A stretch of 64,000 nucleotides of DNA from Chelativorans petroleitrophicus (GTDB lineage: Bacteria; Pseudomonadota; Alphaproteobacteria; Rhizobiales; Rhizobiaceae). The DNA is taken from contig NZ_JAODNV010000016.1 of the NCBI RefSeq assembly GCF_025398195.1, forward strand, positions 1 to 64,000, in the 5' to 3' direction. The position numbers and the translations under genes were made by a program. Under the pieces are notes generated by a model, which was given only the letters and a program-made list of their open reading frames with translations, was not told the DNA's origin and ran no database searches. Below are positions 13,042 to 29,876 of the stretch, piece after piece (the stretch's first letter is position 1; each line of letters starts with the position of its first letter).

Positions 13042-14448
13042 ATGGCGCGCGGGAAACTCTATATCGGCCGCAAGGTTCGCGAACTACGAGGCAAGGCGAC
13101 ACAGGCGGCCTTTGCCGAACGGCTCGGCATTTCCACGAGCTATCTCAATCAGATCGAAAACAACCAGCGCCCGGTCTCGGCCGCCGTGCTTCTGTCGCTC
13201 GCGGAGAAGTTTCAGATCGATATCGGGTCGATCTCGGGAGGAGACAGCGACCGGCTGCTTTCGGCGCTTGCGGAGGTGATGACCGATCCGCTGTTCGAGG
13301 GTCACGCGCCGGGCCTCCAGGAATTGAAGCTCGTAGTGCAGAACGCTCCGGGCCTCGCCCATGCGCTGATCCGCTGCCACCAGGCGTACCGGCGCAACAG
13401 CGAGCAGCTTGCCAGTTTCGACGACCAGCTCGGACGTGCGAACACGTTCTCCGAGCCTACAGCTTATGACGAGGTCCGCGACTTCTTTCACTTCGTCGAC
13501 AACTACGTGCACGATCTCGATGTCGCGGCGGAGCATCTGGCCAGAAAGCTCGGCATCCCGGAACGCGATGCCGGAGGCGCTCTCACCGAATATCTTGAAG
13601 CCGTCCACGGCGTGCGCGTGATGCGCGCGGCGCCGGAAGAGCAGTTCCTGCGGCGCTATGATGCGGCTTCACGGGCGCTGTTCCTTAATCCCTACTCGCC
13701 GGCCCCCACAAGAACCTTCCAAATGGCGTTCCAGATCGCGGCGCTGGAGCAGCAGGATCTGATGAACGGCATCACAGAAAAGGCCGACTTCCGCTCGGCC
13801 GAGGCGGCCGACATCTGCCGGATCGGACTGCAGAATTATTTCGCGGGTGCCCTGATCCTGCCGTACCAGACCTTCACGACGACCGCCAAGGAGCTGCGCC
13901 ACGACCTCGAACTGCTCGCGGCGCGCTTCGGCGCGAGCCTGGAACAGGTAGCTCACCGCCTGTCGACCCTTCAGCGGCCGGGAATGAAAGGCATTCCGGT
14001 GTTCTTCGCCACCGTGGACCGCGCCGGAAACATCACCAAGCGGCACAGCGCCGCGAAGCTGCAGTTCGCCCGGTTCGGTTCGGCGTGCCCTCTCTGGAAC
14101 GTCCATCAGGCCTTCGAAGCACCCGGCAGGATGGTTCGGCAACTGGCTGAAACGCCGGACGGCGTTCGCTATCTTTCGGTTGCGACCGAAGTCATCAAGA
14201 GCGGCGGAGGATACCGGGCGCCGCACCGCCGCTATGCCATCGCTCTCGGCTGCGAAATCTCATACGCTGAATATTTCGTCTATGCCGACGGCCTCGACCT
14301 GACCAACCGCGCAGCGTTTGACCCGATCGGCATCTCCTGTCGGATTTGCGAACGCATCAACTGTCATCAAAGAGCGGTGCCTCCGCTGAAGGCAAGGCTG
14401 AAGGTCGATCCCAACTTCCGCGCGGCATTGCCCTATTCCATCGAGTAA
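13042..14448 (+). CDS. pccR: Short-chain fatty acyl-CoA regulator (ScfR/PccR family), XRE-type
   Basis: A 468-residue regulator. Residues about 8-62 form an XRE helix-turn-helix ([21 protein letters not shown]). A middle region follows with an IrrE/ImmA-like fold, and the C-terminal DUF2083-type domain carries [18 protein letters not shown] with three cysteines. ScfR members sense acyl-CoA esters; PccR activates propionyl-CoA carboxylase genes in Rhodobacter. Position divergent from pccB supports that role. The ATG at 13042 has no recognisable ribosome binding site, being preceded by two AATTGCGA repeats, so leaderless translation is possible. Its stop overlaps the next start (TAATG). Confidence 0.88.
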
Positions 14449-15167
14449 TGGACATGCCGATGGAAACCGCACCGCCCCGGCATCTCACTCCCCGCAGAAG
14501 ACCGCGTCAGGCCCGCGCCACAGCCACGCTGGATGCGATCTTCGAGGCAACCATCCAGGTGCTAATTGCCGTCGGGCCCAACCGACTGACGACGACCCGT
14601 GTAGCGGAACGGGCGGGCGTTTCCGTCGGCACCATGTATCAGTATTTTCCCCACAAGCAGGCGCTCTTCTACGCCCTGAACGAGCGCTATCTGGATGCGC
14701 TCGCAGAAAGGGTCGAAGGCACCTGCCGGGCGATGCAAGGAGCGCCGATCGGCCAGATGGTCGAGGCGCTCGTGGCCACCTACTGGAGCGCGAAGACGGA
14801 GCGGCCCGAGGTGACCCGCGCGCTCTACCGGTCCGTTGTCGAGCTGGACAACGGGGCGCTGATCGACGCCTTCGCCCGTCGCGTCGACAGGGCCACCGCC
14901 GAGATGTTCGCCAGCGCGCCGGACGCCACCTTCGCCGACCTGCAGACCGTGAACCTGACGCTGCTTGCATCGATCTTCGGGACGGTCCGCAGCGCATTCG
15001 AGCGTAACCTGCCTGAACTGCAGGGCGAAGCGGTAAAGAGACAGCTCATCACCATGTGCCGCGCCTATATGGAGACGGTCAAACTGCCTTCGCATGAGAG
15101 TGAGGCGGCGAAGAAGAACCCATCGCCCGGGCAGGAAGCAGCGCTGGCAGGCATCGGGAAAAGCTGA
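14448..15167 (+). CDS. TetR family transcriptional regulator
   Basis: A 239-residue regulator with an N-terminal TetR helix-turn-helix at about residues 18-65 (ARATATLDAIFEATIQVL, then TTTRVAERAGVSVGTMYQYF and PHKQALFYAL). The rest is an all-helical ligand domain with no recognisable effector clue. The ATG at 14448 shares its first base with the stop of the PccR-type gene, giving translational coupling, so the two regulators are made together. The final 25 residues are polar and probably disordered. It may act on the propionate genes or on the broken SDR gene that follows after 153 bases. Confidence 0.85.
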   Translation: MDMPMETAPPRHLTPRRRPRQARATATLDAIFEATIQVLIAVGPNRLTTTRVAERAGVSVGTMYQYFPHKQALFYALNERYLDALAERVEGTCRAMQGAPIGQMVEALVATYWSAKTERPEVTRALYRSVVELDNGALIDAFARRVDRATAEMFASAPDATFADLQTVNLTLLASIFGTVRSAFERNLPELQGEAVKRQLITMCRAYMETVKLPSHESEAAKKNPSPGQEAALAGIGKS

Positions 15168-16071: not shown

Positions 16072-16617
16072 CTATGCGGGCAGGCCCGCCACCATGAAGA
16101 ACAGCTCGGCCGAGGTCTTGGCTCCCACTTTCGCCATCATGCGGGAGCGATGGGCCTCGATCGTGCGGTGCGAAATTCCAAGCCGCTGGCCGATCTGCTT
16201 GTTGGTGAGCCCCTCGACGATCAGCATCGCGATCTGACGCTCGCGGCGCGTGAGATTGACCACCGGGCGCTGATGGGACAGGTCGACAAAAGACCAGACG
16301 CAATGGGCGAAGGGATCTTCCTTCGTCGTCGCCGTGCCGTGCACCTGGCACCAGAACTGGGTGCCGTCGCGGCGCTTCATGATGCGGTTGTCGCTGTAGT
16401 GCTGGGTCTCCTTCATCTGCACCCAGCCGCGATTGCCGATATCGATGAATTCCTGGGTCGAGGGATAGAGCAGAGCCAGAGACTTCCCTTCCAGTTCCTC
16501 AGGCGTGTAGCCGAACATCTGGGCAAAACGAGGCGAGCACTTCTCGATGAGCCGGTAGCGCGTGGCCACCAGGCCGATCGGCGCGTGCTCGACAATGAAA
16601 TCCGAGGTCCCGTCCAT
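16072..16617 (-). CDS. PAS domain plus LuxR-type helix-turn-helix transcriptional regulator
   Basis: A 181-residue regulator. Residues about 1-115 form a PAS sensor domain (VEHAPIGLVATRYRLIEKCS, then GYTPEELEGKSLALLYPS and MKRRDGTQFWCQVHGT). Residues about 118-175 form a LuxR/GerE DNA-binding domain (LTRRERQIAMLIVEGLTNKQ, then IGQRLGISHRTIEAHRSRMM). There is no receiver domain, so it probably senses a small ligand or redox state directly. The gene is divergent from the NmrA-LigM operon, and a repeated roughly 50-bp element starts 17 bases before its start codon. It is the best candidate regulator for the whole 16-40 kb regulon. Confidence 0.9.
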   Translation of the reverse strand: MDGTSDFIVEHAPIGLVATRYRLIEKCSPRFAQMFGYTPEELEGKSLALLYPSTQEFIDIGNRGWVQMKETQHYSDNRIMKRRDGTQFWCQVHGTATTKEDPFAHCVWSFVDLSHQRPVVNLTRRERQIAMLIVEGLTNKQIGQRLGISHRTIEAHRSRMMAKVGAKTSAELFFMVAGLPA

Positions 16618-16633
16618 TGTTCGCCAGTGCAGG

Positions 16634-16684
16634 AATAGCGTGCTCGCACTAATAGCGATTTTAGGTCACGTGTGCAAATTTTAG
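16634..16684 (+). promoter_or_regulatory. Regulatory element copy A, before the NmrA-LigM operon
   Basis: The element begins AATAGCGTGCTCGCAC and carries GGTCACGTG starting 30 bases in and CAAATTTT about 10 bases further on. The same layout recurs at 26979-27029 and at 26153-26104 (minus strand); 27 of the first 50 positions are identical in all three copies when lined up without gaps. It ends about 29 bases before the NmrA start at 16714. Internally AATAGCG occurs twice (16634, 16651) and ATTTTAG twice exactly 20 bases apart (16658, 16678). Confidence 0.7.
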
Positions 16685-16713
16685 CATCATTCCAGGGAGG
16701 TATAAGAGCGAGC

Positions 16714-17616
16714 ATGGCTGAGACGACCATTGCCGTCATCGGCACCACGGGCCGCACCGGCCGCCCCCTCGTTGCCGCGCTGGAAAGGCGCGGCGCGCAT
16801 GTCCGCGTTCTCTCACGCAAGCCGCAGAAACCGGACCTTTTTCCCGGCACCGTCGAATGGCGCCTCGGCGATCTCATGGACATCGGTTCCTTGATAGAAG
16901 CGTTCCGGAGCGCGAACGCGATCCACTACATTCCGCCTTCGCTCGACAAGCGCGACCCGGATTACATGGGCAACATCATCGCGGCGGCGGAGCGCGCTGG
17001 CGTTTCGCGGCTGGTCTATCATTCGGTCCTGCACCCGAATACGCCGGAGATGCCCCATCATATCCGCAAAGCGGGGTGCGAGCGGCTCCTGCGCCACTCG
17101 CCGCTCAGCTGGACCGTGATCCAGCCCGCCATGTATGTGCAGACGATGCTGGGCTATCTGGACGCCGCTGAAGGCGTGCTTGCTCCGCCCTTCGACACTG
17201 CCCGGCAATTCACGCTGATCCATGAGCAGGACCTCGCGGAAGCGGCCGCCATCATCCACACCACTAGGGGTCATGACTTCGCGACCTACGAACTGGCGGG
17301 CGCCGAGCGGCTCGATTCCATGGCGATGGCGGAGATGCTGGGCACCATTCTCGGCCGGCCCGTCACGGCCCGCAAGGCCGACGCGGAAGCCTATGTCGCC
17401 CGCTTTGCGGAAAAGCGCGGGTTGACGCCGGAGCAGGCGCGCGAACGCCGGCTGATGTTCGACTATTACGACCGGCACGGGCTTGTGGGGAACCCCAACG
17501 TGCTGCGCATGATCCTCGGACGCGAACCCGCCAGTTTCATGGAAGCCGCGCGACACAGCCTGCCTGGCGAACAGAACGGGCCGGCGGCCCGAACCGGAAA
17601 TGAGGGACGCCAATGA
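16714..17616 (+). CDS. NmrA-like NAD(P)-binding protein (paired with LigM-like protein 1)
   Basis: A 300-residue atypical SDR of the NmrA/HSCARG type. An N-terminal Rossmann motif IGTTGRTGRPL (about residues 9-19) and the arginine-rich RVLSRKPQKP favour NADP. Further on are RLVYHSVLH, MPHHIRK and QPAMYVQT. It lacks the catalytic YxxxK of classical SDRs, as NmrA proteins do, so it may be a redox sensor or a reductase. A paralogue at 38183 shares RLVYHSVLH, QPAMYVQT and the RHGL-GN C-terminal segment, and also directly precedes a LigM-like gene. The start is ATG 16714; GGGAGG is 13 bases upstream, rather far. It overlaps the next gene by four bases. Confidence 0.85.
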   Translation: MAETTIAVIGTTGRTGRPLVAALERRGAHVRVLSRKPQKPDLFPGTVEWRLGDLMDIGSLIEAFRSANAIHYIPPSLDKRDPDYMGNIIAAAERAGVSRLVYHSVLHPNTPEMPHHIRKAGCERLLRHSPLSWTVIQPAMYVQTMLGYLDAAEGVLAPPFDTARQFTLIHEQDLAEAAAIIHTTRGHDFATYELAGAERLDSMAMAEMLGTILGRPVTARKADAEAYVARFAEKRGLTPEQARERRLMFDYYDRHGLVGNPNVLRMILGREPASFMEAARHSLPGEQNGPAARTGNEGRQ

Positions 17617-19037
17617 TGAGTGAAAAGAAGCCTAAGTCCCTGCAGGACCTATTGGACGCCACGCCCGATCTCGTCAGCTACTTCTATAACGATACCCATT
17701 CGCCGCACGCCATGGCGACACCGGGCGCGGCACCGCTTCCGCCGGAATTCACCAACTGGCGGGACGAACAGCGCGCCTGGCGGGAATCGGTGCTGCTGTT
17801 CGATCAATCCTACCACATGCCGGAAACCTTCCTGCGCGGCCCGGATGCGCAGAAGCTCCTAAGCGACCTTGGCATCAACAGCTTCGAGAACTTCACCCCC
17901 CTGCGCGCAAAGCAGTATTTCTGCTGCAACCACCGAGGCTATGTCATCGGCGAATGCGTGCTGCAGCTTCTGGACGACGGCACCTACGAGCTGATCAGCG
18001 GAACTTATGTGCAGAACTGGGTCGAATACAACGCCAGGGCTGGCGGTTATGACGTGACCTTGGAGCGCGACCCTCCCTTTGCGGAAAATCCGCGGGGCCG
18101 CCGCATGTACCACCTGCAGCTCGAAGGCCCCTTTGCCCGGGATGTCTTCGCCGAAGCCATCGAGGGCGAGATGCCGGACATCCCCTTCTTCCGCATGGCG
18201 AAGGTAAAGATCGCCGGCAGCGACGTCTATGTGCTGCGGCACGGCATGGCGGGGCATTTGGGGGTTGAACTCTCCGGGCCTTTTGCCGAGCTCGACCGGG
18301 TCCGTATGCGCCTGCTCGAGGTCGGCGCAAAATACGGCATCAGGCGGTCCGGCACCAAGGCGCAGTATAGCGCTTTGGGTGAATCCGGCTGGTTCGGTTA
18401 TCCCGTGCCGGCGGTCTATACAGACCCTGAGCTTGCCGATTACCGCAAGTGGCTGCCAGCGGATTCCTGGGAAGGAAGGACGCAGCTCGGCGGCAGCCTC
18501 GTCCTGCCTAGCATCGAGCAGTACTACGTGACGCCCTGGGATTTGGGTGCCGACAAACTGCTCAAGTTCGACCACGATTTCATCGGCCGCGAAGCGCTTC
18601 AGGAGATGGCCAAGCGGACGGACCACCGCAAGAAGGTAACGCTTGTCTGGAACGAGGAGGACGTTGCCCGGGTCTACGCTTCGCTGATGGGGCCGGACCT
18701 GCCCTTCAAATACATGGAGCTGCCGAAGTCTTCCTACAGTTTCCATCAGCATGACGAGGTGCGCAACGAACGCGGCGACATCGTCGGCTTCTCCAAATTC
18801 GTGGGCTACACGGTGAACGAGGCGAAGTTCCTCTCCATCGCCATCGTGGCGCCCGAGGCCGCCGCCCCCGGCACCCAAGTCATCCTGACCTGGGGCGAGC
18901 CCAATGGAGGATCGCGGAAGCCGATGGTCGAGCGCCATCGCCAGACCACCATCCGCGCGACAGTGGCACCCAATCCTTACGCCAAAGCGGCCCAGCAGCA
19001 GAAGAACGCCGCCCTCATGAAGGCGGCGGCCGTCTGA
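17613..19037 (+). CDS. LigM-like tetrahydrofolate-dependent demethylase 1 (GcvT superfamily)
   Basis: A 474-residue protein of the aminomethyltransferase (GcvT) fold. Its layout and motifs follow LigM, the vanillate/3-O-methylgallate O-demethylase of Sphingobium: EFTNWRDEQRAWRESVLLFD, then LSDLGINSFE, LRHGMAGHLGVELSGP, REWLPA-like KWLPADSW, and LKFDHDFIGREAL. Such enzymes move a methyl group from substrate to THF. LigM Gln57 and His60 (numbers from memory) appear kept, whereas Tyr31 and the carboxylate-binding Arg122 appear replaced, so vanillate itself may not be the substrate. Translationally coupled to the NmrA gene; MetF- and PurU-type genes downstream support methyl-THF production. A glycine- or betaine-type methyl donor is the main alternative. 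Confidence 0.8.
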   Translation: MMSEKKPKSLQDLLDATPDLVSYFYNDTHSPHAMATPGAAPLPPEFTNWRDEQRAWRESVLLFDQSYHMPETFLRGPDAQKLLSDLGINSFENFTPLRAKQYFCCNHRGYVIGECVLQLLDDGTYELISGTYVQNWVEYNARAGGYDVTLERDPPFAENPRGRRMYHLQLEGPFARDVFAEAIEGEMPDIPFFRMAKVKIAGSDVYVLRHGMAGHLGVELSGPFAELDRVRMRLLEVGAKYGIRRSGTKAQYSALGESGWFGYPVPAVYTDPELADYRKWLPADSWEGRTQLGGSLVLPSIEQYYVTPWDLGADKLLKFDHDFIGREALQEMAKRTDHRKKVTLVWNEEDVARVYASLMGPDLPFKYMELPKSSYSFHQHDEVRNERGDIVGFSKFVGYTVNEAKFLSIAIVAPEAAAPGTQVILTWGEPNGGSRKPMVERHRQTTIRATVAPNPYAKAAQQQKNAALMKAAAV

Positions 19038-19058
19038 ATTCAAAGAGCGAGGAAGATT

Positions 19059-20006
19059 ATGAGGCTCGTAACGTTCCAGGAGATCGGCAGCTCGGAGGCC
19101 CGCCTCGGCGCGCTCTCTCCTGCCGACAAGGTGATCGACCTGCAGGAGCGCCACCGTGCGCTCTTCGGAGGCTCGCTGAGCGAGCTTGCATCGATGCTCG
19201 CCCTGATCGAAGGCGGGCCCGCCGTGCTTGATCTCGCGCGCTCGCTCGCGGCAAGCGAAGGCGAGGAGCTTTCTATCGGCAAGGATGTGCGGCTGCTTGC
19301 CCCGATCCCTCTGCCGCCGCAGATCCGCGACAGCATGAACTTCCTTGGCCACCTCGTGAACGCCATAGACGGCCGCAACAGGCGCAACGGCGTCACCGAG
19401 CGGACGAAAGCGCAGTAGGAGAGAATCGAGACCTTCCTGCGCCGGCCCTCCTGGTACAAGTGCAACCGTTTCTCGGTGGCTGGTCCCGACGTGGAGGTTA
19501 CGTGGCCGCACTATTCCAACTATGTCGACTACGAGCATGAGCTTGCCTGCGTGCTGTGGAAGGGCGGCAAGAACATTCCGGTGGAGGAAGCCGAAAACCA
19601 CATCTTCGGCTACATGAACTTCAACGATCTTTCCGCGCGCGACGTGCAGCCCGATGAGATGGCCATGTGTGGCCCCACCAAGAGCAAGGATTTCGACGAC
19701 GGGAACGTGTTCGGCCCGTGGATTCTCACGGCCGACGAGTTCGACCCGAAAACCGCGCGGATGCGCTCCTGGGTGAATGGCGAGCTCATCAACGAAGGGC
19801 GGATGGCCGACATGCACTACAGCTTCCCCCAGGTGATCTCCTATATGTCCCAGGACGAAACGCTCTATCCGGGCGAGATCATCGGTTCCGGAACGGTGGC
19901 GGGCGGCTGCCGGCTGGAGTTCGGCGAGCAGCTCAACTTCGGCGACACGGTGGAGATCGAGACGGACGGTCTCGGCCGGCTGAAGGTCAGGATCGCCGAG
20001 CGTTAG
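19059..20006 (+). pseudogene. Fumarylacetoacetate hydrolase family protein with an in-frame amber stop
   Basis: One frame of 315 codons from ATG 19059 encodes a complete FAH-family protein, interrupted by TAG at 19416-19418 in the linker before the catalytic domain. After the stop come RRPSWYKCNRFS, the metal-binding YVDYEHELACVLW and FNDLSARDVQ, and the C-terminal GTVAGGCRLEFGEQ. FAH-family enzymes cleave acylpyruvates or hydrate dienoates in aromatic catabolism. It lies in the same operon direction between LigM-like 1 and the MetF homologue. A single base change would restore it. Real decay, a sequencing error, or readthrough cannot be separated here; the second part has no good start of its own. 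Confidence 0.82.
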
Positions 20007-20169
20007 CCCTTTCCGCCCAGAAGCTTCCAGACCCAGCGGCTCGGCCGCACGATAGCCGCGGTCTTCATCGCCGCGCGGCTGCAAGGCCCGCCTGAGGCGG
20101 GTTGCCCGGTTGCGTTCGGGGCGGGCGCACGTTCTCCCGTCTCAATCTCTTTCCTCCAGGAGGAAACAG

Positions 20170-21066
20170 GTGACGACTCCGCTTATCCATCCCGGCTGGG
20201 CGCCTCCTGCGGCCAATATGCTCAGCGGCTATTCGCTCGAGATGACGGCGAAGGACATCGATTCGCTTCGCGCGGCAGCACCCGCCATCAGGCCCGGCGC
20301 ATCGGTCTCCATCGCCTTCCTGCCAAACGAGACTCTTGCCGCGCGCGTGGCCGCGGCGAAGGCCATACGCGAGCTCGGATTCGAGCCAATGCCGCATTTT
20401 GCGGCGAGGCGGTTCCGCTCGCCGGCGGAGTTTGAGGACTATCTTGCGGCAGCCGTGGCTGAGGCGGGCGTGCGGCGCTGTTTCGTGATCGCCGGTGATC
20501 CGGCAAACCCGCAGGGGCCCTTCGAGAACAGCATGGCGCTGATTGAGACCGGGGCGTTCGAGCGGTACGGAATTGCCGGCCTTGGCGTCGGCGGCCACCC
20601 CGAAGGTCATCCCAGGATGACCAAGGAGCAGAGCTTTGCGGTGCTTCAGGCCAAGTGCGCCGAAATCGTCCGTCGCGGCATGGCACCGTTGGTGGTGACC
20701 CAGTTCGCCTTCGATGCAGACCGCGTCCTTGCTTGGCTCAAGGCGCTGCGGGCGCGGAGGCTCGACGTGCCCGTGCGGATCGGAATACCAGGGCCGGCCG
20801 GCGTCAGCACACTCCTGCGTTTTGCCGCCCGCTGCGGCGTAGGCGCGTCTAAGACGGTGCTTGCGAAATACGGGATCTCGGTGGGCAAGCTTTTCGGCCC
20901 GGCGGGCCCTGACAAGCTTGTCGAGGCACTGGACCGCGGACTCGGCCCCGAACACGGGCCGGTGCGCCTTCACTTTTACCCGTTCGGCGGCTTAGAGAAG
21001 ACCGTCGAGTGGATCAATAGATTCGATCGGGCACACCCATCGCGCATATCGGAAAGGGAAAATTGA
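20170..21066 (+). CDS. Methylenetetrahydrofolate reductase homologue (MetF family)
   Basis: A 298-residue flavoprotein-type TIM barrel. Recognisable MTHFR elements are the GDPANPQGPF segment (about residues 115-125), GLGVGGHPEGHP, VVTQFAFDADRVLAWL and PVRIGIPGPAG. MTHFR interconverts 5,10-methylene-THF and 5-methyl-THF. In LigM-type demethylation it runs in the oxidative direction to regenerate THF, and the neighbouring LigM-like and purU genes point to that role rather than methionine synthesis. I start it at GTG 20170, eight bases after a strong AGGAGG; the frame is open upstream to 20110 without family-like sequence. It is rather divergent from E. coli MetF. Confidence 0.85.
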   Translation: MTTPLIHPGWAPPAANMLSGYSLEMTAKDIDSLRAAAPAIRPGASVSIAFLPNETLAARVAAAKAIRELGFEPMPHFAARRFRSPAEFEDYLAAAVAEAGVRRCFVIAGDPANPQGPFENSMALIETGAFERYGIAGLGVGGHPEGHPRMTKEQSFAVLQAKCAEIVRRGMAPLVVTQFAFDADRVLAWLKALRARRLDVPVRIGIPGPAGVSTLLRFAARCGVGASKTVLAKYGISVGKLFGPAGPDKLVEALDRGLGPEHGPVRLHFYPFGGLEKTVEWINRFDRAHPSRISEREN

Positions 21067-21067
21067 C

Positions 21068-21925
21068 GTGAGCAATTCGTATATCCTGCGTGTCGAGGCA
21101 AAGGACCGGCCGGGGCTGGTCGCCCGCGTCGCCGGTTTCATCGCCGGGCGGGGCGGCAACATCGTCGATGCCCAGCAGTTCGACGATGGTCTCAACGACC
21201 GCTTCTTCATGCGCGTGGCCTTCAGGGCAGCCGAGGACGACACGCTCGAGCGGTTCCGCGGTGCCTTCGCTCCTGTCGGCGAAGAACTCCGGCTCACCTG
21301 GTCCGTCCGAGACCAGCACCACCGAAGCAAAGTGCTGCTGATGGTCTCCAAATGGGATCACTGCCTCGGCGATCTGCTCTACCGTCACCGGATCGGCGAA
21401 TTGCCGATGGAGGTGGTGGGCATCGCCTCCAACCATCCGAGAGAAGCGCTCGTCACCTATCTGCCGGAAGAGATTCCTTTCCACTATCTGCCGGTAACGC
21501 CCGAAACACGGCCGGCTCAGGAAGCGCAGATCAAGCAGCTCGTGGAGGAAACGGGGACCGAGCTCGTCGTTCTGGCCCGCTATATGCAGATACTGTCGGA
21601 CGATCTTGCCGCGTTCCTATCGGGGCGCTGCATCAACATCCATCACAGCTTCTTGCCGGGCTTCAAGGGGGCGAAACCCTACCACCAGGCGCATGAGCGC
21701 GGCGTGAAGATGATTGGGGCGACCGCGCACTACGTTACCCGCGATCTCGACGAAGGCCCGATCATTCACCAGGACGTGGAAGCGATCAGCCACGCCGACA
21801 CGCCGGACGAACTCATCCGCAAGGGGCGCGACATAGAGCGCCGTGTGCTGGCCGAAGCGGTTCGCCTGCATCTTGAAGGCCGCGTCTTCCTCAATGGAAC
21901 GCGGACCGTGGTTTTCAGGGGTTAG
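21068..21925 (+). CDS. purU: Formyltetrahydrofolate deformylase
   Basis: A 285-residue PurU. The N-terminal ACT domain (about residues 4-80: SYILRVEAKDRPGLVARVAG) precedes a formyltransferase-fold hydrolase domain with LARYMQILSDDLAAFLSGRC, INIHHSFLPGFKGAKPYHQA and GATAHYVTRDLDEGPIIHQD, which hold the catalytic Asn, His and Asp. It hydrolyses 10-formyl-THF to formate and THF. One base separates it from the MetF homologue, so the pair is an operon; together with a FolD elsewhere they would turn methyl-THF into formate and free THF. Start GTG 21068. Confidence 0.95.
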   Translation: MSNSYILRVEAKDRPGLVARVAGFIAGRGGNIVDAQQFDDGLNDRFFMRVAFRAAEDDTLERFRGAFAPVGEELRLTWSVRDQHHRSKVLLMVSKWDHCLGDLLYRHRIGELPMEVVGIASNHPREALVTYLPEEIPFHYLPVTPETRPAQEAQIKQLVEETGTELVVLARYMQILSDDLAAFLSGRCINIHHSFLPGFKGAKPYHQAHERGVKMIGATAHYVTRDLDEGPIIHQDVEAISHADTPDELIRKGRDIERRVLAEAVRLHLEGRVFLNGTRTVVFRG

Positions 21926-21959
21926 AAGGCCGCAGCGGCGGCGCATAGCAGCAAGCAAC

Positions 21960-21992
21960 GAGGCTGAGGCGACAGCGCAGCGCCGCAGCCTC
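21960..21992. terminator. Possible bidirectional terminator hairpin
   Basis: GAGGCTG at 21960-21966 pairs perfectly with CAGCCTC at 21986-21992, with an internal CG/CG pair possible. It lies between the convergent purU and MBL genes and is followed by a pyrimidine run (TCTTCTCC) rather than a true U tract. Plausible but weak. Confidence 0.4.
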
Positions 21993-22021
21993 TCTTCTCC
22001 AGCTTTGTACCCAGGCCGGCT

Positions 22022-23044
22022 TCAGGCGTGCCCGGGAGGCGTAAAGGACCCCATCTCCACCGCCAGCGGCGCGATGAGCCTGTCCAACTCCGGCCGGCTG
22101 GTGGCCTGTTTGTCGCCCCTGAAATGACGGTAGCACGTGTCGACATTGATGAGGATGCGCTCCGGCGCCTTCCACGTGCGGAACTCTCCGAGATCGATAT
22201 CTCTTGCCGCTTCCGCGACGGACATTCCCTTCTTGAAGCGCAAGCGCGCTTCATGTTCCACCATTTCGAGATAGCGGCGCGTCGGCGCCAGCCCCGCCTT
22301 GTCCGTGATCGGTCCGTGGCCGGGAACGATGATATCGACGTCGAGCGTTTCCAGATAATCGAGCGCTTTAAGCCAGTTGCTGATCGGCCCGGCCCAGACG
22401 GCCGGCGTGTTACCCAGAAAAACGATGTCCGCCGCGTAGACGATGCGCCTTGCCGGCACATGGACGATGGTATCGCTCGGCGTGTGGGCGGGACCGAACT
22501 CGATGAACTGGACGTCGAGGCTTCCGACACGCAGATCCTTTCTTCCGGAAAAGGTGCTCGTCGGCATGGCTGGCTCGAAGCCCTCAATGTGAAAGGGCGG
22601 CCCCCACGTATAGTGAATATAATCGCCCACGATGCCCGCCGGCCTATTATTCACATAGTCCCGCATGCGCGCCACGGCCGGCGCCCGCTCGCGCATGTTG
22701 TTCGCCGTGGTCTCGGTTGCGATGATCTCGGCATGCTCTACGAGCCGATTGCCAAACGTGTGGTCGGCATCGCGATGCGTGTTCAGCACCCTGCGGATGT
22801 CCCTGGCCGCCACGCCCGTCTTTTGCTCGATCTCGCGCAGCATCGCCGCCGTAAGGCGCTCATCGCGCAAGGTATCGATCAGAAGCGTATCACCGTCATC
22901 GAGAATGAAGCCGGAGTTGCTCCAACCTGAATATGGCGGCCTGTCCGGCTGCATGTATGCGAAGCACCCGCCGCCGAGATCATGGAGACCCTGCGTGTAA
23001 GGCCATTTGCCATGGCCCAGGCTGCCCGTTGACGATGGCGACAT
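22022..23044 (-). CDS. MBL-fold metallo-hydrolase
   Basis: A 340-residue metallo-beta-lactamase fold protein. Motifs are DTLLIDTL, NTHRDADHTFGN (about residues 90-101), FGPAHTPSDTIVHVP, and VPGHGPITD. The usual zinc motif is HxHxDH; here it reads His-Arg-Asp-Ala-Asp-His, with Asp in place of the second His. The role is probably hydrolysis of a thioester, lactone or ester, unspecified. The start is ATG 23044, which has AGGAG seven bases upstream, not the ATG 15 bases earlier. It ends the minus-strand operon begun by the TRAP genes (33-base gap from DctM), so its substrate may be the imported compound or a derivative. Confidence 0.82.
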   Translation of the reverse strand: MSPSSTGSLGHGKWPYTQGLHDLGGGCFAYMQPDRPPYSGWSNSGFILDDGDTLLIDTLRDERLTAAMLREIEQKTGVAARDIRRVLNTHRDADHTFGNRLVEHAEIIATETTANNMRERAPAVARMRDYVNNRPAGIVGDYIHYTWGPPFHIEGFEPAMPTSTFSGRKDLRVGSLDVQFIEFGPAHTPSDTIVHVPARRIVYAADIVFLGNTPAVWAGPISNWLKALDYLETLDVDIIVPGHGPITDKAGLAPTRRYLEMVEHEARLRFKKGMSVAEAARDIDLGEFRTWKAPERILINVDTCYRHFRGDKQATSRPELDRLIAPLAVEMGSFTPPGHA

Positions 23045-23077
23045 GGTGCTTCTCCTCAACTTGCTTTTCCCGATGCT

Positions 23078-24397
23078 TCAGCGCGCAAGACTAGGTAGGA
23101 AGGTCACGATCTCCGGCACGAAAGTTAGGATGACGACGCCGACCATCGCGACCAGGATCATCGGAATGACCGCCTTGTAGATCTCGCTCATAGGCACATC
23201 CGGAGCGGCGGATTTGAACACGAACATCGTGTAGCCCAGCGGCGGGGTGATCCCGCCGAACATGAGATTGATCAGCAGCATCATCCAGAACCAGAGCGGG
23301 TCGAAGCCGAGCTGTTCGATGATGGGTGAGTAAACCGGCACCAGGATCAGCATCACCGCAAGCTGATCGATGAACATGCAGAGGATGAACACGGCGACCA
23401 TCATAACGAGATAGACAAGCCAGGGATCGACCGTCAGCCCACTGGCAAATTCGATGAGGCCCTGCGTCGCGCCTGTATAGGCGAGAAGCTGGGTGAACAG
23501 CCGGGAACTCGCAATGATGAAGAGCACCGTGCCGGTGGTGATCGCCGCGCCGTAAAGCGTCTGCCCGATCATCTTGAAAGAGAATGTCCCGAAGAGGAAG
23601 CTCATCAGGATCGCCCCAACCACGCCGACAGCGGCCGCTTCAGTCGGCTGCGCGATGCCCAGCATCACCAGTCCGAGCGTCAGGAAGATGATGCCGCTCA
23701 GCGGAATGATGGGCAGGATTGTCTTGAAGCGGGCCCTGGCGTCCATCGGCGTGTCTTCGACGGCGGCGCCTCCGTGGGAGTCAAGCTTGGGATTGATGAG
23801 CACCCGCACCAGCGCATAGGCCATATAGCAACCGGCGAGCAGCAGGCCCGGGCCGATGCCGGCGAGGAGAAACTTCTGAATGGAAAGATTGGCAAGCGTC
23901 GCCAGGATGATGGCGACGACGCTCGGCGGGATGATCGCGTCGAGCGTGGCGCCGGCGAGGATCGTTCCCACTGCCAGGCGTCGGTCGCAACCACGCTCCA
24001 CCATCGTCGGATAAACAAAGCGCCCGAGCACCGACACGGACGCCATGGTCGAACCGGAAATGGCGCCGATGAAGGCAGCCACCACCACGGCGATGAAATA
24101 GAGCCGGCCGCGGATCACGCCGATGAGCGTGTCGAAGGCCTTGAACAGGAGAGAGACGCCGCCTGTCCGGAACATCAATTCGCCAAGCAGAATGAACATC
24201 GGCACGGCGACAAAGGCCTCGACCGTGGTCGTGTCCAGCATCGAGTTGACGAAAAGGCCGAGCCCGTTCGGCCCTACGAAATAGATCACCGCCACCACGT
24301 TCCGGATCATGAAGCAGGCGAAGAGCGGAAGGCCGGAGGCGAACATCGCCAGCATGGCCGAGAACATGACGAGAAGGGTCAGCCACCACATGATCAA
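23078..24397 (-). CDS. TRAP transporter large permease (DctM family) 1
   Basis: A 439-residue protein with about 12 hydrophobic membrane segments, the ion-coupled channel of a TRAP importer. Family marks include FILLGELMFRTGG, GAISGSTMASVSVLGRFVYP, IIPPSVVAIILATLANLS, and the C-terminal FGGITPPLGYTMFVFKS. With DctQ and DctP it takes up an organic acid using the sodium or proton gradient. It overlaps the DctQ gene by four bases. Confidence 0.94.
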   Translation of the reverse strand: MIMWWLTLLVMFSAMLAMFASGLPLFACFMIRNVVAVIYFVGPNGLGLFVNSMLDTTTVEAFVAVPMFILLGELMFRTGGVSLLFKAFDTLIGVIRGRLYFIAVVVAAFIGAISGSTMASVSVLGRFVYPTMVERGCDRRLAVGTILAGATLDAIIPPSVVAIILATLANLSIQKFLLAGIGPGLLLAGCYMAYALVRVLINPKLDSHGGAAVEDTPMDARARFKTILPIIPLSGIIFLTLGLVMLGIAQPTEAAAVGVVGAILMSFLFGTFSFKMIGQTLYGAAITTGTVLFIIASSRLFTQLLAYTGATQGLIEFASGLTVDPWLVYLVMMVAVFILCMFIDQLAVMLILVPVYSPIIEQLGFDPLWFWMMLLINLMFGGITPPLGYTMFVFKSAAPDVPMSEIYKAVIPMILVAMVGVVILTFVPEIVTFLPSLAR

Positions 24398-24885
24398 AAT
24401 TCCACGGTGTCTTCCGGCGCCTCATCGGCCGGGGCGATAAAATTGAGGGCGGAAAGCACGAGGCCGAAGGTCATGACGGCGGTGAGCCACCAGCGCGGAA
24501 TCTGGTTCGCCATCGTCGTAAGCACGCCCTGATGATACTGCCGGATGCACAGATCGAGGACGAAAGCGGCGACGATCATCAGCACGGTCGCCGAAACGAG
24601 CTCCAGCACGCGCGTCACCTTGCGGAAAAGCGGTTGCGGAAGCGCTTCCAGAACCATGGTGACGGCGATATGCCCCCGCTGCCGGGTGACCAGCGGCAGC
24701 GACAGAAAGACCATCACGCACAGCATGTAGCTGCCGGTATCGCCCGACCAGTTGAGCGGATTGTTCAGGCCGTACCGGGCGACCACCTCAGCGACATAGA
24801 TTACCGCCGCGATGCCGACTGCAGTGGCGGCCAGGATCGCGCATGCTTTGGAGATGAACCGTAAAGCCGAGTTGACGAAATGCAT
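24394..24885 (-). CDS. TRAP transporter small permease (DctQ family) 1
   Basis: A 163-residue protein with four predicted membrane segments and the family motifs VARYGLNNPLNWSGDTGSYM and PLVTRQRGHIAVTMV. It is the small membrane subunit of the TRAP importer. I use the ATG at 24885, which has GAGAGG about 4 bases upstream, rather than the GTG four codons earlier. It lies between DctP (126-base gap) and DctM (four-base overlap). Confidence 0.9.
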   Translation of the reverse strand: MHFVNSALRFISKACAILAATAVGIAAVIYVAEVVARYGLNNPLNWSGDTGSYMLCVMVFLSLPLVTRQRGHIAVTMVLEALPQPLFRKVTRVLELVSATVLMIVAAFVLDLCIRQYHQGVLTTMANQIPRWWLTAVMTFGLVLSALNFIAPADEAPEDTVEF

Positions 24886-25011
24886 TGAACCTCTCACCCG
24901 CGCGCCGCGTGCGCACGGTCTGTTTCAGGTCGGCGGAGGATCCGAGCTTGTTTCGACGCTGTTATTCACGCGTCTTTCGCTGGCGGTTCGTCCGCCGGCC
25001 ATTCCGACCGG

Positions 25012-25992
25012 CTAGTTTTTGTCCGAAAGTTCGAGCAGCGCCTTTACGTCGTCGGGCCGCGAGCGCATTGCGATTTCGCGCTGGCCCGCGACGTACAGCT
25101 TATCAAGCTCGGGAGCGACTTCAGGGCTGAATTCGGTGAACTGGACGCCGTTCTCCAGCATGATCCTGGTTTCATCCGCCGCCTGCTTGGCGAAGAACTC
25201 CACCGCCCTGTGCTCAAGGTCGAGCCCTGCCTTCATGATCGCGTCCTGCTGATCCTTGGGCAGCGAGTCGAATTTGGCGGCGTTCATGAAGACGGCGTTG
25301 TGGCTCTTGCCGAATGTGGGCTTCGCCAGGAAACTGGTGACCTCGTAGAGCTTGAACTCGGCCGTAGCGATCTCCGGCCAGACGACGCCGTCAAGCGTGC
25401 CCCTCTGCAAGGCGGCGTAGGCGTCTGCGTGCCCCATCGACACGGGTGCACCGCCGAGGGCACGAACGATCCCTTCATAGCTCGCGTTCGAGCGGATTTT
25501 CCGCCCCTCAAGCCTAGTATCGCCGGTAAGCGGCTCACGGAAAACGAAGGTGGTCTCGCCGATCGCGAAAATGGCCAGGGGAAAGACGCCGAAATTCTCG
25601 CGGTAGTAGTCGTTCAGCCACTGCCTGATGCCGGAGGAAGTCAGAAGCTCCGGATCGGAAGTCTCGGGAATGGCGGAAATGCCCACGCCAATGCCGGTCT
25701 GCGCCTGATGATATGAGGGAGCCGTGTACATTATGTCGAAAACCCCCTGGGTGAGGGGCTCGAACTGCTCGAACGGCGGAACGGTTTCCGGGCCGTTGTC
25801 CTGAAAGGTAATCTCGCCGCCGGTCGCCTCGGTGACCGCCTTTTGAAAGCCGTAATAAAGTTCCGAGACCTGCTTCAGATTCTGCGGAAAGGCCCTGATC
25901 GACCGGAGGGTTTCGGCCGCCGCCGGGTTCGTGAAAGTCGCGACGGCAATTGCCGTGGCTGCCGCGAGAACGCAGGAAAGGTTGAGTCTCAT
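25012..25992 (-). CDS. TRAP transporter solute-binding protein (DctP family) 1
   Basis: A 326-residue periplasmic binding protein with a Sec signal peptide (about residues 1-25, ending PAAAE). The family region LEGRKIRSNASYEGIVRALGG contains the Arg that usually salt-bridges a substrate carboxylate, followed by AYAALQRGTLDGVVWP. It captures an organic anion for the DctQM pair downstream. The start is ATG 25992 with GGGAGG six bases upstream; the open frame runs further to 26106 without sense. A copy of the repeated regulatory element lies 111 bases upstream, linking it to the NmrA-LigM and thiolase operons. Confidence 0.92.
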   Translation of the reverse strand: MRLNLSCVLAAATAIAVATFTNPAAAETLRSIRAFPQNLKQVSELYYGFQKAVTEATGGEITFQDNGPETVPPFEQFEPLTQGVFDIMYTAPSYHQAQTGIGVGISAIPETSDPELLTSSGIRQWLNDYYRENFGVFPLAIFAIGETTFVFREPLTGDTRLEGRKIRSNASYEGIVRALGGAPVSMGHADAYAALQRGTLDGVVWPEIATAEFKLYEVTSFLAKPTFGKSHNAVFMNAAKFDSLPKDQQDAIMKAGLDLEHRAVEFFAKQAADETRIMLENGVQFTEFSPEVAPELDKLYVAGQREIAMRSRPDDVKALLELSDKN

Positions 25993-26103
25993 TTTTTCCT
26001 CCCAGAGATACTCTGCCTGATGGGGCCGGAAGCGGTTTTTCCTGTCCGGACGGAGCTCTTCTCCCAAGAACTCCGTCTGGCCCAAACACCGCAACTCGTT
26101 CGG

Positions 26104-26153
26104 CAATTTTGAGGCAGGTGACCAAGGGAAGGTAGTCGTGCGAACACGCTATT
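26104..26153 (-). promoter_or_regulatory. Regulatory element copy C, before the first TRAP operon
   Basis: Read on the minus strand from 26153 it begins AATAGCGTGTTCGCAC, has GGTCACCTG starting 30 bases in, then CAAAATT, with the same spacing as copies A and B. It lies in the gap between the end of the alpha/beta hydrolase gene and DctP. The hydrolase stop codon TAG is formed by bases of the element's AATAGCG. Confidence 0.65.
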
Positions 26154-26922
26154 TTTCTACGGGTGGCCGGACAATACCGCCTGAACGGCCGGCACGCCGT
26201 TCGATCCGCAGGAGAGCACCCGCAAGTCCCTCCGCGTTGGAGAGGAAAGGGGAATGATCGCAGTACAGTGTTTCAACCGCCTCCACCGGCAGAGATTCCT
26301 GCATCAGACGCTGTTCGGAAAGGGGGATCACGCGATCCTCCGTGCATTCCACGTAGAATCGGGGCACGGTTCCGAACCTGCCTTCGGAAAGGCGAAGCCG
26401 CGTGCGGGAAGGCTGAAAAGGATCGGCCATAAGGCGCCCGGCGGCCAAAAGCCGGTCCTCGGGAGCGCAGCAGTTGTAGAAGAACTCCGCGGCCGCGAGA
26501 GGGTCCACCCGTGTCCCGGCCTTCTCACCGATGACGGAAATGGCGTTGGCGCGGGAGAAGGGACTTTGCACCGGCTGTCTTGCCTTGAACGACGACGCCG
26601 AGTCGCCATCCGGAAGCATGAAAGCGGCGATGTAGACGAGCGCGCGTATGGCTTCCGGCGCGATTTCCGCTGCCGTGCTGATCACCACGCCGCCACGGCT
26701 GTGGCCGCACAGGATAACCGGCTCCGGCTGCACCCGCACAAGGCTGGCAACGAACCGGCCCCAGCCCTCAAGGGTGACGGCGGCAAGCTCCGCTTCCTCT
26801 CCGCCTATTCCCGGCAGGTCCGGCGCAAGGACGTGATGCCCCTCCCGGCGCAGGGCATCGGCCACCTTGGCAAAGCACCAGCCCGAATGCCACGCTCCAT
26901 GCACGAAGAGGAAAAACGCCAT
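26149..26922 (-). CDS. Alpha/beta hydrolase (esterase-like)
   Basis: A 257-residue alpha/beta hydrolase without signal peptide. It has the oxyanion HGAWHSGW near residue 8, the nucleophile elbow GHSRGG (Ser about 75), an acid in ECTEDRVIP, and a catalytic His in CDHSPF. The small, compact form and AFMLPDG cap resemble plant SABP2/EstC-type methyl-ester hydrolases. It is divergent from the thiolase operon across copy B of the regulatory element and upstream of TRAP operon 1. A role opening an ester of the imported compound is inference. Confidence 0.85.
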   Translation of the reverse strand: MAFFLFVHGAWHSGWCFAKVADALRREGHHVLAPDLPGIGGEEAELAAVTLEGWGRFVASLVRVQPEPVILCGHSRGGVVISTAAEIAPEAIRALVYIAAFMLPDGDSASSFKARQPVQSPFSRANAISVIGEKAGTRVDPLAAAEFFYNCCAPEDRLLAAGRLMADPFQPSRTRLRLSEGRFGTVPRFYVECTEDRVIPLSEQRLMQESLPVEAVETLYCDHSPFLSNAEGLAGALLRIERRAGRSGGIVRPPVEK

Positions 26923-26978
26923 ATCTGAACATCGCCCGCTTCACGTTCGGGATTATGGCCTACCCCTTCCTGCCGGGA

Positions 26979-27029
26979 AATAGCGTGCTCCCACGAATAT
27001 GCATTTCGGTTCGCGTGCGCAAATCTTCC
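26979..27029 (+). promoter_or_regulatory. Regulatory element copy B, before the thiolase operon
   Basis: It begins AATAGCGTGCTCCCAC, identical to copy A over the first 12 bases, and carries GCGTG and GCAAATCTT at the same offsets as GTG and GCAAATTTT in copy A. GCAAAT starts exactly 40 bases into both copies. It ends about 21 bases before the thiolase ATG at 27050 and 57 bases from the divergent hydrolase start. Confidence 0.7.
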
Positions 27030-27049
27030 ATGTCATGAGAGGAGGTGTC

Positions 27050-28225
27050 ATGACAGGCGCATTCATCATCGGCTGGGGCCACACCAAATTTGGCCGCCTC
27101 GAATCCAAGTCCATCGAGGATCTCATCGTCGATGCCGCCCGCGAGGCGATCGACCACGCGGGCATTCAAGCGTCGGACGTCGACGCCATCTTTGTCGGGA
27201 ACTTCAACAGCGGCCTGATACCTGACGGCTTCGTCTCGTCCATGGCGCTCGCGGTCGACCCGTCACTGCGCTTCAAGCCGGCGACCCGGCTTGAAAACGC
27301 CTGTGCTTCGGGCTCGGCCGCGGTTTATGCGGCGCGGGACGCCATCCGCGCGGGCTCCGTGAAGACGGCTCTCGTCATCGGCGCGGAGAAGATGACGCTG
27401 CGCGACACCGCCGGCGTCACGGAAGCGCTTGCCGGCGCCTCGTACCAGCCAGAGGAAGGCGGCGTCTCATTTCCGCAGGTCTTCGCGCGTTTCGCGCAGG
27501 CCTATTTTCAGGCCTACGGCGATCACTCCGGAACGCTCGCCCGGATCGCGTCCAAGAACCACCACAACGCGATGCACAACCCCCTGGCGCATCTGCACAA
27601 GCCGCTCGATTTCGAGTTCTGCAACACGGTGAGCGACAAGAACCCGATGATCGCGGCGCCGCTCAGGATGTCCGACTGCTCGCTGATATCGGACGGCGCG
27701 GCGGCCCTCGTCATGACGAGCAAGGAGGTGGTCGCCGAGCGCGAGACGGCCATCGCCTTCCGGGCAGCCGTTCAGGTGAACGACTATCTGCCGATGTCGC
27801 GGCGCGACCTTCTGGCCTTCGAAGGCCCCTCGGAAGCCTTTCGGCGCGCCTTCGACGAAGCCGGCATCACCGTTCATGACCTCGACTTCGCCGAAGTGCA
27901 TGACTGCTTCACCATCGCGGAACTCATGATCTATGAAGCCATGGGGCTTGCACCGAAGGGCCAGGGTCGCAGAGCCATCGACGATGGAACCGTCATGCGG
28001 GACGGGAGGCTGCCCGTCAATCTGTCGGGAGGCCTGAAGGCCAAGGGGCATCCGGTCGGGGCGACCGGCGTCTCGATGCACGTGCTTGCGGCCATGCAAC
28101 TCTCCAATCAGGCGGGCGCGATGCAGAAGCCGGGCGCAAGCCTCGGCTGCGTGTTCAACATGGGAGGGTCTGGCGTGGCCAACTACTGCTCGATCCTCGA
28201 GCCGGTCAGGGCGGCTTCCCGATGA
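27050..28225 (+). CDS. Thiolase family protein (acetyl-CoA acetyltransferase type)
   Basis: A 391-residue thiolase. The nucleophilic Cys sits in LENACASGSAAVY (about Cys 86). Later come HDCFTIAELMIYEAMGL and GGLKAKGHPVGATGVS with the active-site His, and the C-terminal GCVFNMGGSGVANYCSIL, where many thiolases have a second Cys in a CxG context. The pattern fits the SCP-x/3-ketoacyl-CoA thiolase branch that cleaves branched or bulky 3-ketoacyl-CoAs. The start is ATG 27050 behind GAGGAGGTG. It overlaps the acyl-CoA synthetase by four bases and leads the operon. Confidence 0.9.
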   Translation: MTGAFIIGWGHTKFGRLESKSIEDLIVDAAREAIDHAGIQASDVDAIFVGNFNSGLIPDGFVSSMALAVDPSLRFKPATRLENACASGSAAVYAARDAIRAGSVKTALVIGAEKMTLRDTAGVTEALAGASYQPEEGGVSFPQVFARFAQAYFQAYGDHSGTLARIASKNHHNAMHNPLAHLHKPLDFEFCNTVSDKNPMIAAPLRMSDCSLISDGAAALVMTSKEVVAERETAIAFRAAVQVNDYLPMSRRDLLAFEGPSEAFRRAFDEAGITVHDLDFAEVHDCFTIAELMIYEAMGLAPKGQGRRAIDDGTVMRDGRLPVNLSGGLKAKGHPVGATGVSMHVLAAMQLSNQAGAMQKPGASLGCVFNMGGSGVANYCSILEPVRAASR

Positions 28226-29760
28226 ACGTGGCACTCTGGCTGGAGCGGGCGGCCCGTCTTCATCCCGACGCGCCCGCCCTGATGACCGGTACGTCCCTCG
28301 TGGCGGATTATGCTGAGTTCTACCGCGGGGCGAAGGCGATCGCGGGGGCATTCAGATCGCGGTACGGCATCGAGCCGGGCGATCACGTCGCGATTTTCAT
28401 GGGTAACGCCACTCAGTATCTCGAAGCACTCTATGCAACGCTGATCCTGGGCGGCGCCATCGTGCCCATTAATGCCAAGCTGCATCCACGCGAGGCGGCA
28501 TGGATCGTGAAGAACTCTGAAGCCAAGCTTGTCGTCAGCAGCGGCAAGGAACTGGCCGGCTTGCAGGCGCAGCCGGAGGCGAAGAATCTGCCCATCATCG
28601 ACGCGAAATCCCGCGACTGGACCGCGCTTTACGATGCGGCGCCAGTCGACCGGCCGGTCCGGCGCAGCCAGGACGATCTGGCCTGGATCTTCTACACGTC
28701 GGGTACGACGGGCAGGCCCAAGGGCGTTATGCAGTCCCACGGAAACATCCAGGCGATGACCTTCGCCTATCTCGCCGATGTCGATCAGGCTGAGCAGACG
28801 GATTGCGCGCTCTACGCCGCTCCCATGTCGCATGGAGCGGGCAGCTACAATTTCGTCTTCACTCTCAGGGCGGCCCGGCACGTGGTGCCCCCCTCCGGCG
28901 CCTTCAACGCGGCGGAGATTCAGGAGCTCGCCCCGGTACTGCGCAACGTCTGCATGTTCGCCGCACCTACTATGATCCGCCGCATGATCGCCCATGCCAA
29001 GGAGACCGGTTATGATGGCGACGGCTTGAAGACCGTCGTCTATGGCGGCGGGCCCATGTATGTGAGCGATATCCTTGAAGCTGTCGAGGTCTTCGGCCCC
29101 CGCTTCGTGCAGATATACGGGCAGGCGGAAAGCCCGATGACTATCACCGCCCTGCCCCGCAAGCGGGTCGTGGACCGGGATCATCTGCGCTGGCGCGAAC
29201 GCCTCGGTTCGGTGGGAACCGCGCATTCCTGTGTAGAGGTCAAGATCGCCGACGCGGAAGGCAACGAGGTGCCGCAAGGTGAGATCGGCGAAATACTCGT
29301 CTCCGGTTCAACGGTGATGAAGGGATACTGGCGTAACGACGAGGCGACGCGCGAAACGATCCGCGACGGCTGGCTTTGGACCGGCGACATGGGCTCGATG
29401 GACGACGACGGCTTCGTCACGCTCCGCGACCGCTCCAAGGATCTCATCATCTCGGGCGGCACCAACATCTACCCTCGCGAGGTGGAAGAGGTCCTGCTCA
29501 GCCATCCGTCGGTGGCGCAGGCCTGCGTCGTGGGCGAACCGGACCCCGAATGGGGCGAGATCGTCGTGGCGTTCATCGTTCTGGAACAGGGATACACCAG
29601 GGATGACAAAGCGCTCGACGCGCATTGCATCGACAATATCGCGCGGTTCAAGCGGCCCAAGAAATACGTCTACATCGACGATCTACCCAAGAACGCCTAT
29701 GGCAAGGTTTTGAAAACCGAGTTGCGGAAGCTATTGTCGAAGGAAGCGCCTGGAGGATAG
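28222..29760 (+). CDS. Class I adenylate-forming acyl-CoA synthetase
   Basis: A 512-residue AMP-forming ligase. Motif A3 is FYTSGTTGRPKGVMQSHGN (about residues 157-175); then come IYGQAESPMTITALP, LWTGDMGSMDDDGFVTLRDR and ISGGTNIYPREVEE. The C-terminal catalytic Lys lies in PKNAYGKVLKTELR. It activates a carboxylic acid with ATP and CoA. Next to a thiolase and an enoyl-CoA hydratase it probably starts beta-oxidation-like shortening of an imported or produced acid. The chain type (fatty, aryl or terpenoid) is not evident. Confidence 0.92.
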   Translation: MNVALWLERAARLHPDAPALMTGTSLVADYAEFYRGAKAIAGAFRSRYGIEPGDHVAIFMGNATQYLEALYATLILGGAIVPINAKLHPREAAWIVKNSEAKLVVSSGKELAGLQAQPEAKNLPIIDAKSRDWTALYDAAPVDRPVRRSQDDLAWIFYTSGTTGRPKGVMQSHGNIQAMTFAYLADVDQAEQTDCALYAAPMSHGAGSYNFVFTLRAARHVVPPSGAFNAAEIQELAPVLRNVCMFAAPTMIRRMIAHAKETGYDGDGLKTVVYGGGPMYVSDILEAVEVFGPRFVQIYGQAESPMTITALPRKRVVDRDHLRWRERLGSVGTAHSCVEVKIADAEGNEVPQGEIGEILVSGSTVMKGYWRNDEATRETIRDGWLWTGDMGSMDDDGFVTLRDRSKDLIISGGTNIYPREVEEVLLSHPSVAQACVVGEPDPEWGEIVVAFIVLEQGYTRDDKALDAHCIDNIARFKRPKKYVYIDDLPKNAYGKVLKTELRKLLSKEAPGG

Positions 29761-29876
29761 CAGAGGCGGCAAGCAGTCATAATGGACTTCGGAGGAGGGG
29801 CCGCCGCAACCGGCCCTCGCAGCAGGCCGCGCCTGTTTGCCGGCAAGCGCGAGAACAAGAAAGGGGAGGCAGCCCG

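Follow-up and report, generated by a model that had tools for sequence, protein, structure and literature searches.

The 64,000-nucleotide stretch of Chelativorans petroleitrophicus DNA considered here (hereafter the window; positions 1 to 64,000 of contig NZ_JAODNV010000016.1, assembly GCF_025398195.1) carries three copies of a repeated element, each in front of one operon of a gene cluster for uptake, side-chain chemistry, and O-demethylation. With a probability of roughly 80%, this element represents the operator and -10 region of promoters activated by a PAS-LuxR (GerE) one-component regulator of 181 amino acids, encoded on the minus strand at 16072-16617 and proposed to be the reader of the element, so that the three operons would be switched on together. 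The original prediction that the LigM, TRAP, and thiolase operons constitute one regulon read by this protein is strongly supported by sequence comparison: exact boxes are specific to the cluster, the box has been retained as its flanks diverged, PurU-MTHFR has a near copy in front of it where this pair is separated from LigM, and the core recurs upstream of PAS-LuxR genes of the family. The sites, their exclusivity, their conservation, the family core with its fixed spacing, and the linkage of regulator to targets were all computed; binding, activation in preference to repression, the operon limits, the signal, and autoregulation are what we infer.

The operator and the regulon are new here, the kind of regulator being known already from EL222, PimM, and LuxR; a bolder claim concerns an operator code shared throughout the family. 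The regulator family would be given an operator prediction, a geometry for its promoters, and a delimited set of targets. Uptake, coenzyme A (CoA) side-chain chemistry, and tetrahydrofolate-dependent O-demethylation would likewise be joined into one functional unit, which would point to a methoxylated compound, its side chain activated as a CoA ester, as the likely substrate.

Copies of the Element in the Window and in Relatives

The copies begin at 16634 (plus strand), 26979 (plus strand), and 26153 (minus strand), as originally placed, and several accompanying observations were reproduced: 27 of the first 50 positions are common to copies A, B, and C in ungapped alignment, GCAAAT lies at offset 40 in both A and B, and the copies lie 21-111 bases before NmrA-LigM, thiolase, and DctP. 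Taken in pairs, they agree at 38 (A-B), 32 (A-C), and 29 (B-C) of these 50 positions. A 50-column profile scores 72.8, 67.1, and 61.9 at the copies, values that are self-referential since the same three copies built it, and 6.4 at the next best place in the window. The GGTCACSTG stretch attributed to the element is indeed present in the window copies (as a variant in B) but is not kept in the DctP and PurU copies of relatives or at four more distant thiolase sites.

The notion of a single 50-bp element has been replaced by that of a 21-bp box with a -10-like hexamer 21 bp further on. Box A (AATAGCGTGCTCGCACTAATA), a proposed PAS-LuxR operator, occupies 16634-16654 (plus) in the divergent gap between PAS-LuxR and NmrA-LigM, with the hexamer of the NmrA-LigM promoter at 16676-16681 (plus, offsets 42-47) and a transcription start predicted at ~16688. 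Box B, likewise a proposed operator, occupies 26979-26999 (plus) and is followed by the hexamer of the thiolase promoter at 27021-27026 (plus; predicted start ~27033). It also sits between the thiolase gene and a divergent alpha/beta-hydrolase gene (26149-26922, minus), the stop codon of which falls within copy C. The proposed operator before DctP, Box C, occupies 26133-26153 (minus), its hexamer 26106-26111 (minus), and the start is predicted at ~26099.

Within the 3.96 Mb genome of the window (G000), the 16-mer AATAGCGTGYTCNCAC has three exact matches, none at one mismatch, and one at two mismatches, which lies on another contig; the hundreds of hits that would have marked a dispersed repeat are therefore not seen. 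Exact copies of the box occur in only 3 of 388 family genomes, namely G000 and two relatives (G045 and G497), with three in each, before NmrA-LigM, DctP, and thiolase. Both relatives carry the same cluster, with PAS-LuxR proteins 86% and 84% identical to that of the window, and a near copy (one mismatch in G045, two in G497) before PurU-MTHFR, a pair that PAS-LuxR separates from LigM there. MTHFR and PurU of the window are downstream of LigM on the same strand, no separate copy of the box being found at them with up to three mismatches allowed, and copy A could serve these two genes too. A single site is thus found at several operons, with exact copies nowhere else, and is kept in relatives.

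The box (offsets 0-20) is identical at 19-21 of 21 positions in all nine pairwise comparisons among the three genomes. The 40 bases upstream agree with the window at 12-27 positions when gapped and at 6-17 when ungapped (six comparisons), and offsets 48-87 at 15-21 of 40 with gaps allowed. All 15 sites described below were combined into a 48-position profile, which, with the best 150 of 726, 1070, and 1094 first-look candidates scored in the three genomes, recovered three places in G000 and four each in G045 and G497 at an expectation value (E) of 1.1e-4 or better; all 11 are training sites, and the informative point is the absence of others. The three sites of G000 itself reached 2.7e-6 or better, with one further weak place at 0.245.

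Anatomy of the Element and Proposed Promoter Geometry

Fifteen sites were aligned, comprising three from the window, four from G045, four from G497, and one each from G544, G089, G607, and G046, where a PAS-LuxR orthologue (57-63% identical) and thiolase-AMP ligase point away from each other and a degenerate box lies in the gap. The last four came from a search with an 18-column profile built on the window copies, which makes columns 0-17 partly circular and does not affect columns 18-47; the box is the best match of the locus in G089, G607, and G046. Two blocks are conserved over the 15 sites, AATAGCGTGYTCNCAC-N-A-N-TA at offsets 0-20 and xAxxxT at offsets 42-47, the latter with A at offset 43 in 14 sites and T at offset 47 in 13. 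This A and T are the two most conserved positions of the sigma70 -10 element. The window box carries the family core as GTG-YTCN-CAC, and the GTG-N4-CAC dyad box ends 21 bp before the hexamer. If the hexamer is the -10, transcription would start at about offset 54 and the box would be centred at about -43 (spanning about -54 to -34), near the distance upstream of the start at which lux-box activators sit.

In the proposed mechanism, a dimer of the GerE helix-turn-helix (HTH) domain would bind the 21-bp box, whose GTG-N4-CAC core fits the GTR-N4-YAC family type and whose centre lies ~43 bp ahead of the predicted start, and would stand in for a good -35 by helping sigma70 RNA polymerase onto a weak -10 (xAxxxT). 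The PAS domain would sense a signal, probably the pathway substrate or a CoA intermediate, whereupon the three operons would be induced to provide TRAP uptake, side-chain and CoA chemistry (thiolase, ligase, ECH_2, and GMC), and O-demethylation with one-carbon handling (LigM/DesA, MTHFR-like, and PurU). Box A may, in addition, extend over the promoter from which the regulator itself is transcribed, in which case self-repression would be expected.

A single 50-bp element does not fit the 15 sites, across which offsets 21-41 lack conservation, and was rejected. This interval keeps 11-19 of 21 positions at the NmrA and thiolase sites (six comparisons); at DctP it keeps 6 and 8 of 21 against the window and 16 of 21 between the two relatives. 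There is a hint that a back-facing promoter may account for the better conservation at the NmrA and thiolase sites. The best back-facing promoter score averages ~4.9 at the 10 sites with a divergent gene versus 0.9 at the 5 taken as non-divergent, a comparison to be read with the divergence of the two PurU sites unsettled from open frames, the sites being related, and single scores being unexceptional against shuffles. At the divergent gaps 16618-16713 and 26923-27049, a possible back-facing promoter overlaps the box, as with TTGCAC-17-TATTAG at copy A, and the regulator could thereby repress its own gene.

Two other candidates were discarded. A sigma54 promoter (GG-N10-GC) was rejected on spacings read by eye, and GGTCACGTG, taken from weak opposite-strand self-matches of A and B as a second, inverted copy of the box, was dropped as not conserved. 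The NmrA promoters of G045 and G497 (L107, ~9660-9747, and L108, 10186-10275) contain an AGGTCA-type stretch (GGTCACGTG) followed by CAAAT/CAAAAA, twice, ~23 bp apart. The short pattern TAGCGTGYTCNCAC, with one mismatch allowed, proved uninformative, matching in 125 of 151 genomes with at least as many matches for the reversed-pattern control (judged by eye).

The PAS-LuxR Regulator and Its Family-Wide Core

Pfam places PAS_9 at residues 16-114 and GerE at residues 121-175 of the 181, such that a PAS domain precedes a LuxR/GerE HTH domain in one chain, as in a one-component regulator; no receiver domain was among its Pfam matches, the remainder of which are overlapping PAS or HTH models. In the 15-20 kb around PAS-LuxR in G544, G089, G607, and G046, no match to LigM, NmrA, PurU, the MTHFR-like protein, or the linked TetR was found at E up to 1e-3, and TRAP matches are distant only (28-31% to DctM/DctP of operon C and 25-43% to the second DctP of the window).

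The upstream regions were compared over 70 PAS-LuxR loci, all those retrieved (one search giving loci for its best matches) except L063, which coincides with L068, and L067, where the match is short and partial. Within 235 bases upstream, 22 of 26 representatives (<70% identical) and 60 of the 70 loci have GTR-N4-YAC. Dinucleotide shuffling (200 rounds) left a mean of 3.0 (standard deviation 1.6, maximum 8), and a coding control had it in 3 of 26; other spacers between GTR and YAC (0-3 and 5-12) gave 0-6 of 26. When all inverted trimers with spacers of 0-20 were ranked de novo, GTA-N4-TAC came first with a z of 18.7, the best of 60 shuffle sets reaching 5.6. The core lies at most 60 bp from the regulator start codon in 21 of the 26 representatives.

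Thiolase and/or AMP-ligase homologues adjoin PAS-LuxR in 14 of the 70 loci, within a flank of mostly 1.5 kb, and the 10 of 26 divergent frames that were scanned comprise five substrate-binding proteins, two M20 hydrolases, two thiolases, and one CoA transferase. With such divergent partners (thiolases, acyl-CoA ligases, a CoA transferase, substrate-binding proteins, and M20 hydrolases) as the basis for catabolic wiring, we put forward tentatively, at slightly short of even odds, a widespread proteobacterial family of PAS-LuxR one-component activators that would share one operator code, GTR-N4-YAC ~43-45 bp before the start, and be wired to CoA-dependent and aromatic catabolism, the PAS domain sensing a substrate or CoA intermediate. 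Such a family-wide core would offer a means to predict PAS-LuxR targets in other alphaproteobacteria.

The half-site letters (GTG/CAC or GTA/TAC) may follow the recognition helix, which is only a lead: the helix HRSRMM pairs with a GTG/CAC box in L035, L070, and L072, but L073 (HRMRMM) has GTA/CAC, and L104 (YRATLL) has GTG/CAC, breaking the simplest rule. Strong palindromes such as TACGGTATTGATACCGTA stand beside or overlap the core box in L045, L047, L048, L054, L055, and L106, perhaps as a second operator; in L044 and L045, Pfam assigns the divergent gene to the M20-type hydrolases.

Opposing Evidence and Alternative Explanations

Several results weigh against an activator-read regulon with this geometry. 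The box of G544 is only the second-best profile match in its 20-kb locus (10.0 vs 10.6). The -10 score has its peak over the family at offsets 43-44 (z 3.9 and 3.5), barely above its control (95th percentile 3.4, maximum 4.2), which leaves the 15 close sites as the main basis for the geometry. At NmrA, the gapped upstream flank, within which the PAS-LuxR gene begins, matches at 26-27 of 40 positions, and the contrast between box and flank is therefore only moderate there. Five further dyads (GGT-N6, z 9.3; TAC-N12, 8.3; TAT-N2, 7.7; ACG-N10, 7.2; CGT-N6, 5.7) also exceed every shuffle set and probably represent the outer or inner portions of the core palindromes or of neighbouring ones. The core was not found in 4 of the 26 representatives (L097, L098, L101, and L059), and the match in L064, ~184 bp from the start, may be due to chance. 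Finally, the GTR/YAC letters were picked after viewing the sequences, a concern that the spacer and de novo tests lessen and do not remove.

A repressor at -43 would likewise cover the promoter, and it is conceivable, albeit unlikely, that PAS-LuxR reads the box as a repressor over the -35 region to be released by an inducer. A box at about -54 to -34, should the -10 be right, would also block RNA polymerase, and according to PMC6888825 DesR, which is known to regulate ligM, belongs to the MarR type of repressor and has its ligM site at -40 to -26. On the other hand, the best forward promoters score low for their -35 and -10 elements (1.3-7.6, with hand-entered weights), which fits activator-dependent promoters, while the Streptomyces PAS-LuxR proteins are called activators in the abstracts concerned and, according to excerpts of PMC9774167, bind in the -35 region.

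Activation by PAS-LuxR is also to be set against the quite improbable case that the linked TetR-family gene (~14346-15167), or another regulator of the cluster, encodes the reader of the box. A homologue of this TetR protein (77% and 71%) is kept in the cluster of both relatives that have three exact boxes. TetR proteins, moreover, bind palindromes of such size. The linked TetR was nonetheless not matched (E up to 1e-3) near PAS-LuxR in G544, G089, G607, and G046, where a box yet stands between PAS-LuxR and thiolase, and the box core follows PAS-LuxR genes through order and class. That the copies are a dispersed repeat or recent duplication devoid of regulatory function can be virtually dismissed, for although three near-identical copies lie within 10.4 kb, the exact copies are the only three genome-wide, they are kept at orthologous places in relatives with more diverged flanks, and constraint falls on the columns of an operator and a -10-like hexamer, not on a uniform block.

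Comparison with Known Systems

EL222, a light-driven activator (named a light-activated DNA-binding protein in the 8a5r record), resembles the window protein in its order of PAS/LOV and LuxR-type HTH domains within one chain, residues 8-174 aligning to 8a5r with a whole-sequence E of 1.5e-12. The GRNCRFL of EL222, however, aligns to GKSLALL in the window protein, which thus lacks the cysteine expected of a LOV domain and taken by us to be the photoactive one that binds flavin mononucleotide. Light sensing is accordingly unlikely in the window protein, which should respond to some other signal and use another operator. Among solved PAS domains, the closest, 3mqo, is named only as a LuxR-family regulator.

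The lux box is a dyad of ~20 bp near -42.5 before a weak promoter, much as proposed for the window box, and the window protein has the GerE-type HTH domain of LuxR. It differs from LuxR in having no autoinducer-binding domain among its Pfam matches and in its core, GTR-N4-YAC.

As far as excerpts of PMC9774167 describe them, PimM and PteF of Streptomyces have an N-terminal PAS domain, a C-terminal LuxR HTH domain, and a palindromic operator in the -35 region, with one regulator serving several promoters of one cluster. The PimM operator given there, CTVGGGAWWTCCCBAG, differs from AATAGCGTGYTCNCAC, which sets the window protein apart from PimM, and the Streptomyces regulators control antibiotic genes in contrast to the catabolism of the window system; PimM is likened here by description and not by homology. 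The DesR regulon of Sphingobium SYK-6 (ligM and desB), in the excerpted text of PMC6888825, similarly controls a LigM-type O-demethylase, but through a MarR-type repressor with sites GTTTGTGTCACATAC and GTTTGTGTAACATAC, and hence through another regulator family and operator. Among the matches listed in open-licence papers, there was no description of the present operator or regulon, nor of proteobacterial PAS-LuxR catabolic regulators; those listed for PAS-LuxR regulators dealt almost wholly with Streptomyces.

Proposed Target Operons and Neighbouring Genes

Operon A (plus strand) begins with an NmrA-like NAD(P)-binding protein (16714-17613), followed by a LigM/DesA-type tetrahydrofolate-dependent O-demethylase (17613-19037). 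The latter falls below both curated NCBIfam cut-offs (505.7 vs 800 for DesA and 438.4 vs 580 for LigM), and its best solved relative is LigM (E ~4e-112); on its sequence it is a LigM/DesA relative assignable to neither. An MTHFR-like protein (20110-21066, plus, exact start uncertain) and PurU, a formyltetrahydrofolate deformylase above its curated cut-off (21068-21925, plus), lie further downstream. Operon C (22022-25992, minus) encodes a DctP-DctQ-DctM TRAP transporter together with a metallo-beta-lactamase-fold protein. Operon B (27050-32482, plus) encodes thiolase-like, AMP-dependent acyl-CoA ligase, ECH_2 hydrolase-like, and GMC oxidoreductase proteins.

The gene content of this target set suggests a methoxylated aromatic with a side chain as the substrate. 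The beta-hydroxypropiovanillone route, as outlined in excerpts of PMC11837543, proceeds via HpvZ and HpvY (a predicted choline dehydrogenase) and then VceA/VceB. Judged by gene type only, the GMC enzyme, the ligase, and the thiolase could fit a route related to it.

Between LigM and the MTHFR-like gene lies an FAA-hydrolase-type gene (19059-20006, plus) in two frames, 19059-19418 and 19476-20006, broken between ~19380 and 19476, with a Pfam match in the second only. In L111, a homologue (14661-13840) aligns with the two parts at similar spacing, and the split may be either a real frameshift or a sequence error. On the far side of the regulator, at 13036-15167, a frame for a ScfR-type short-chain acyl-CoA regulator overlaps the TetR-family frame.

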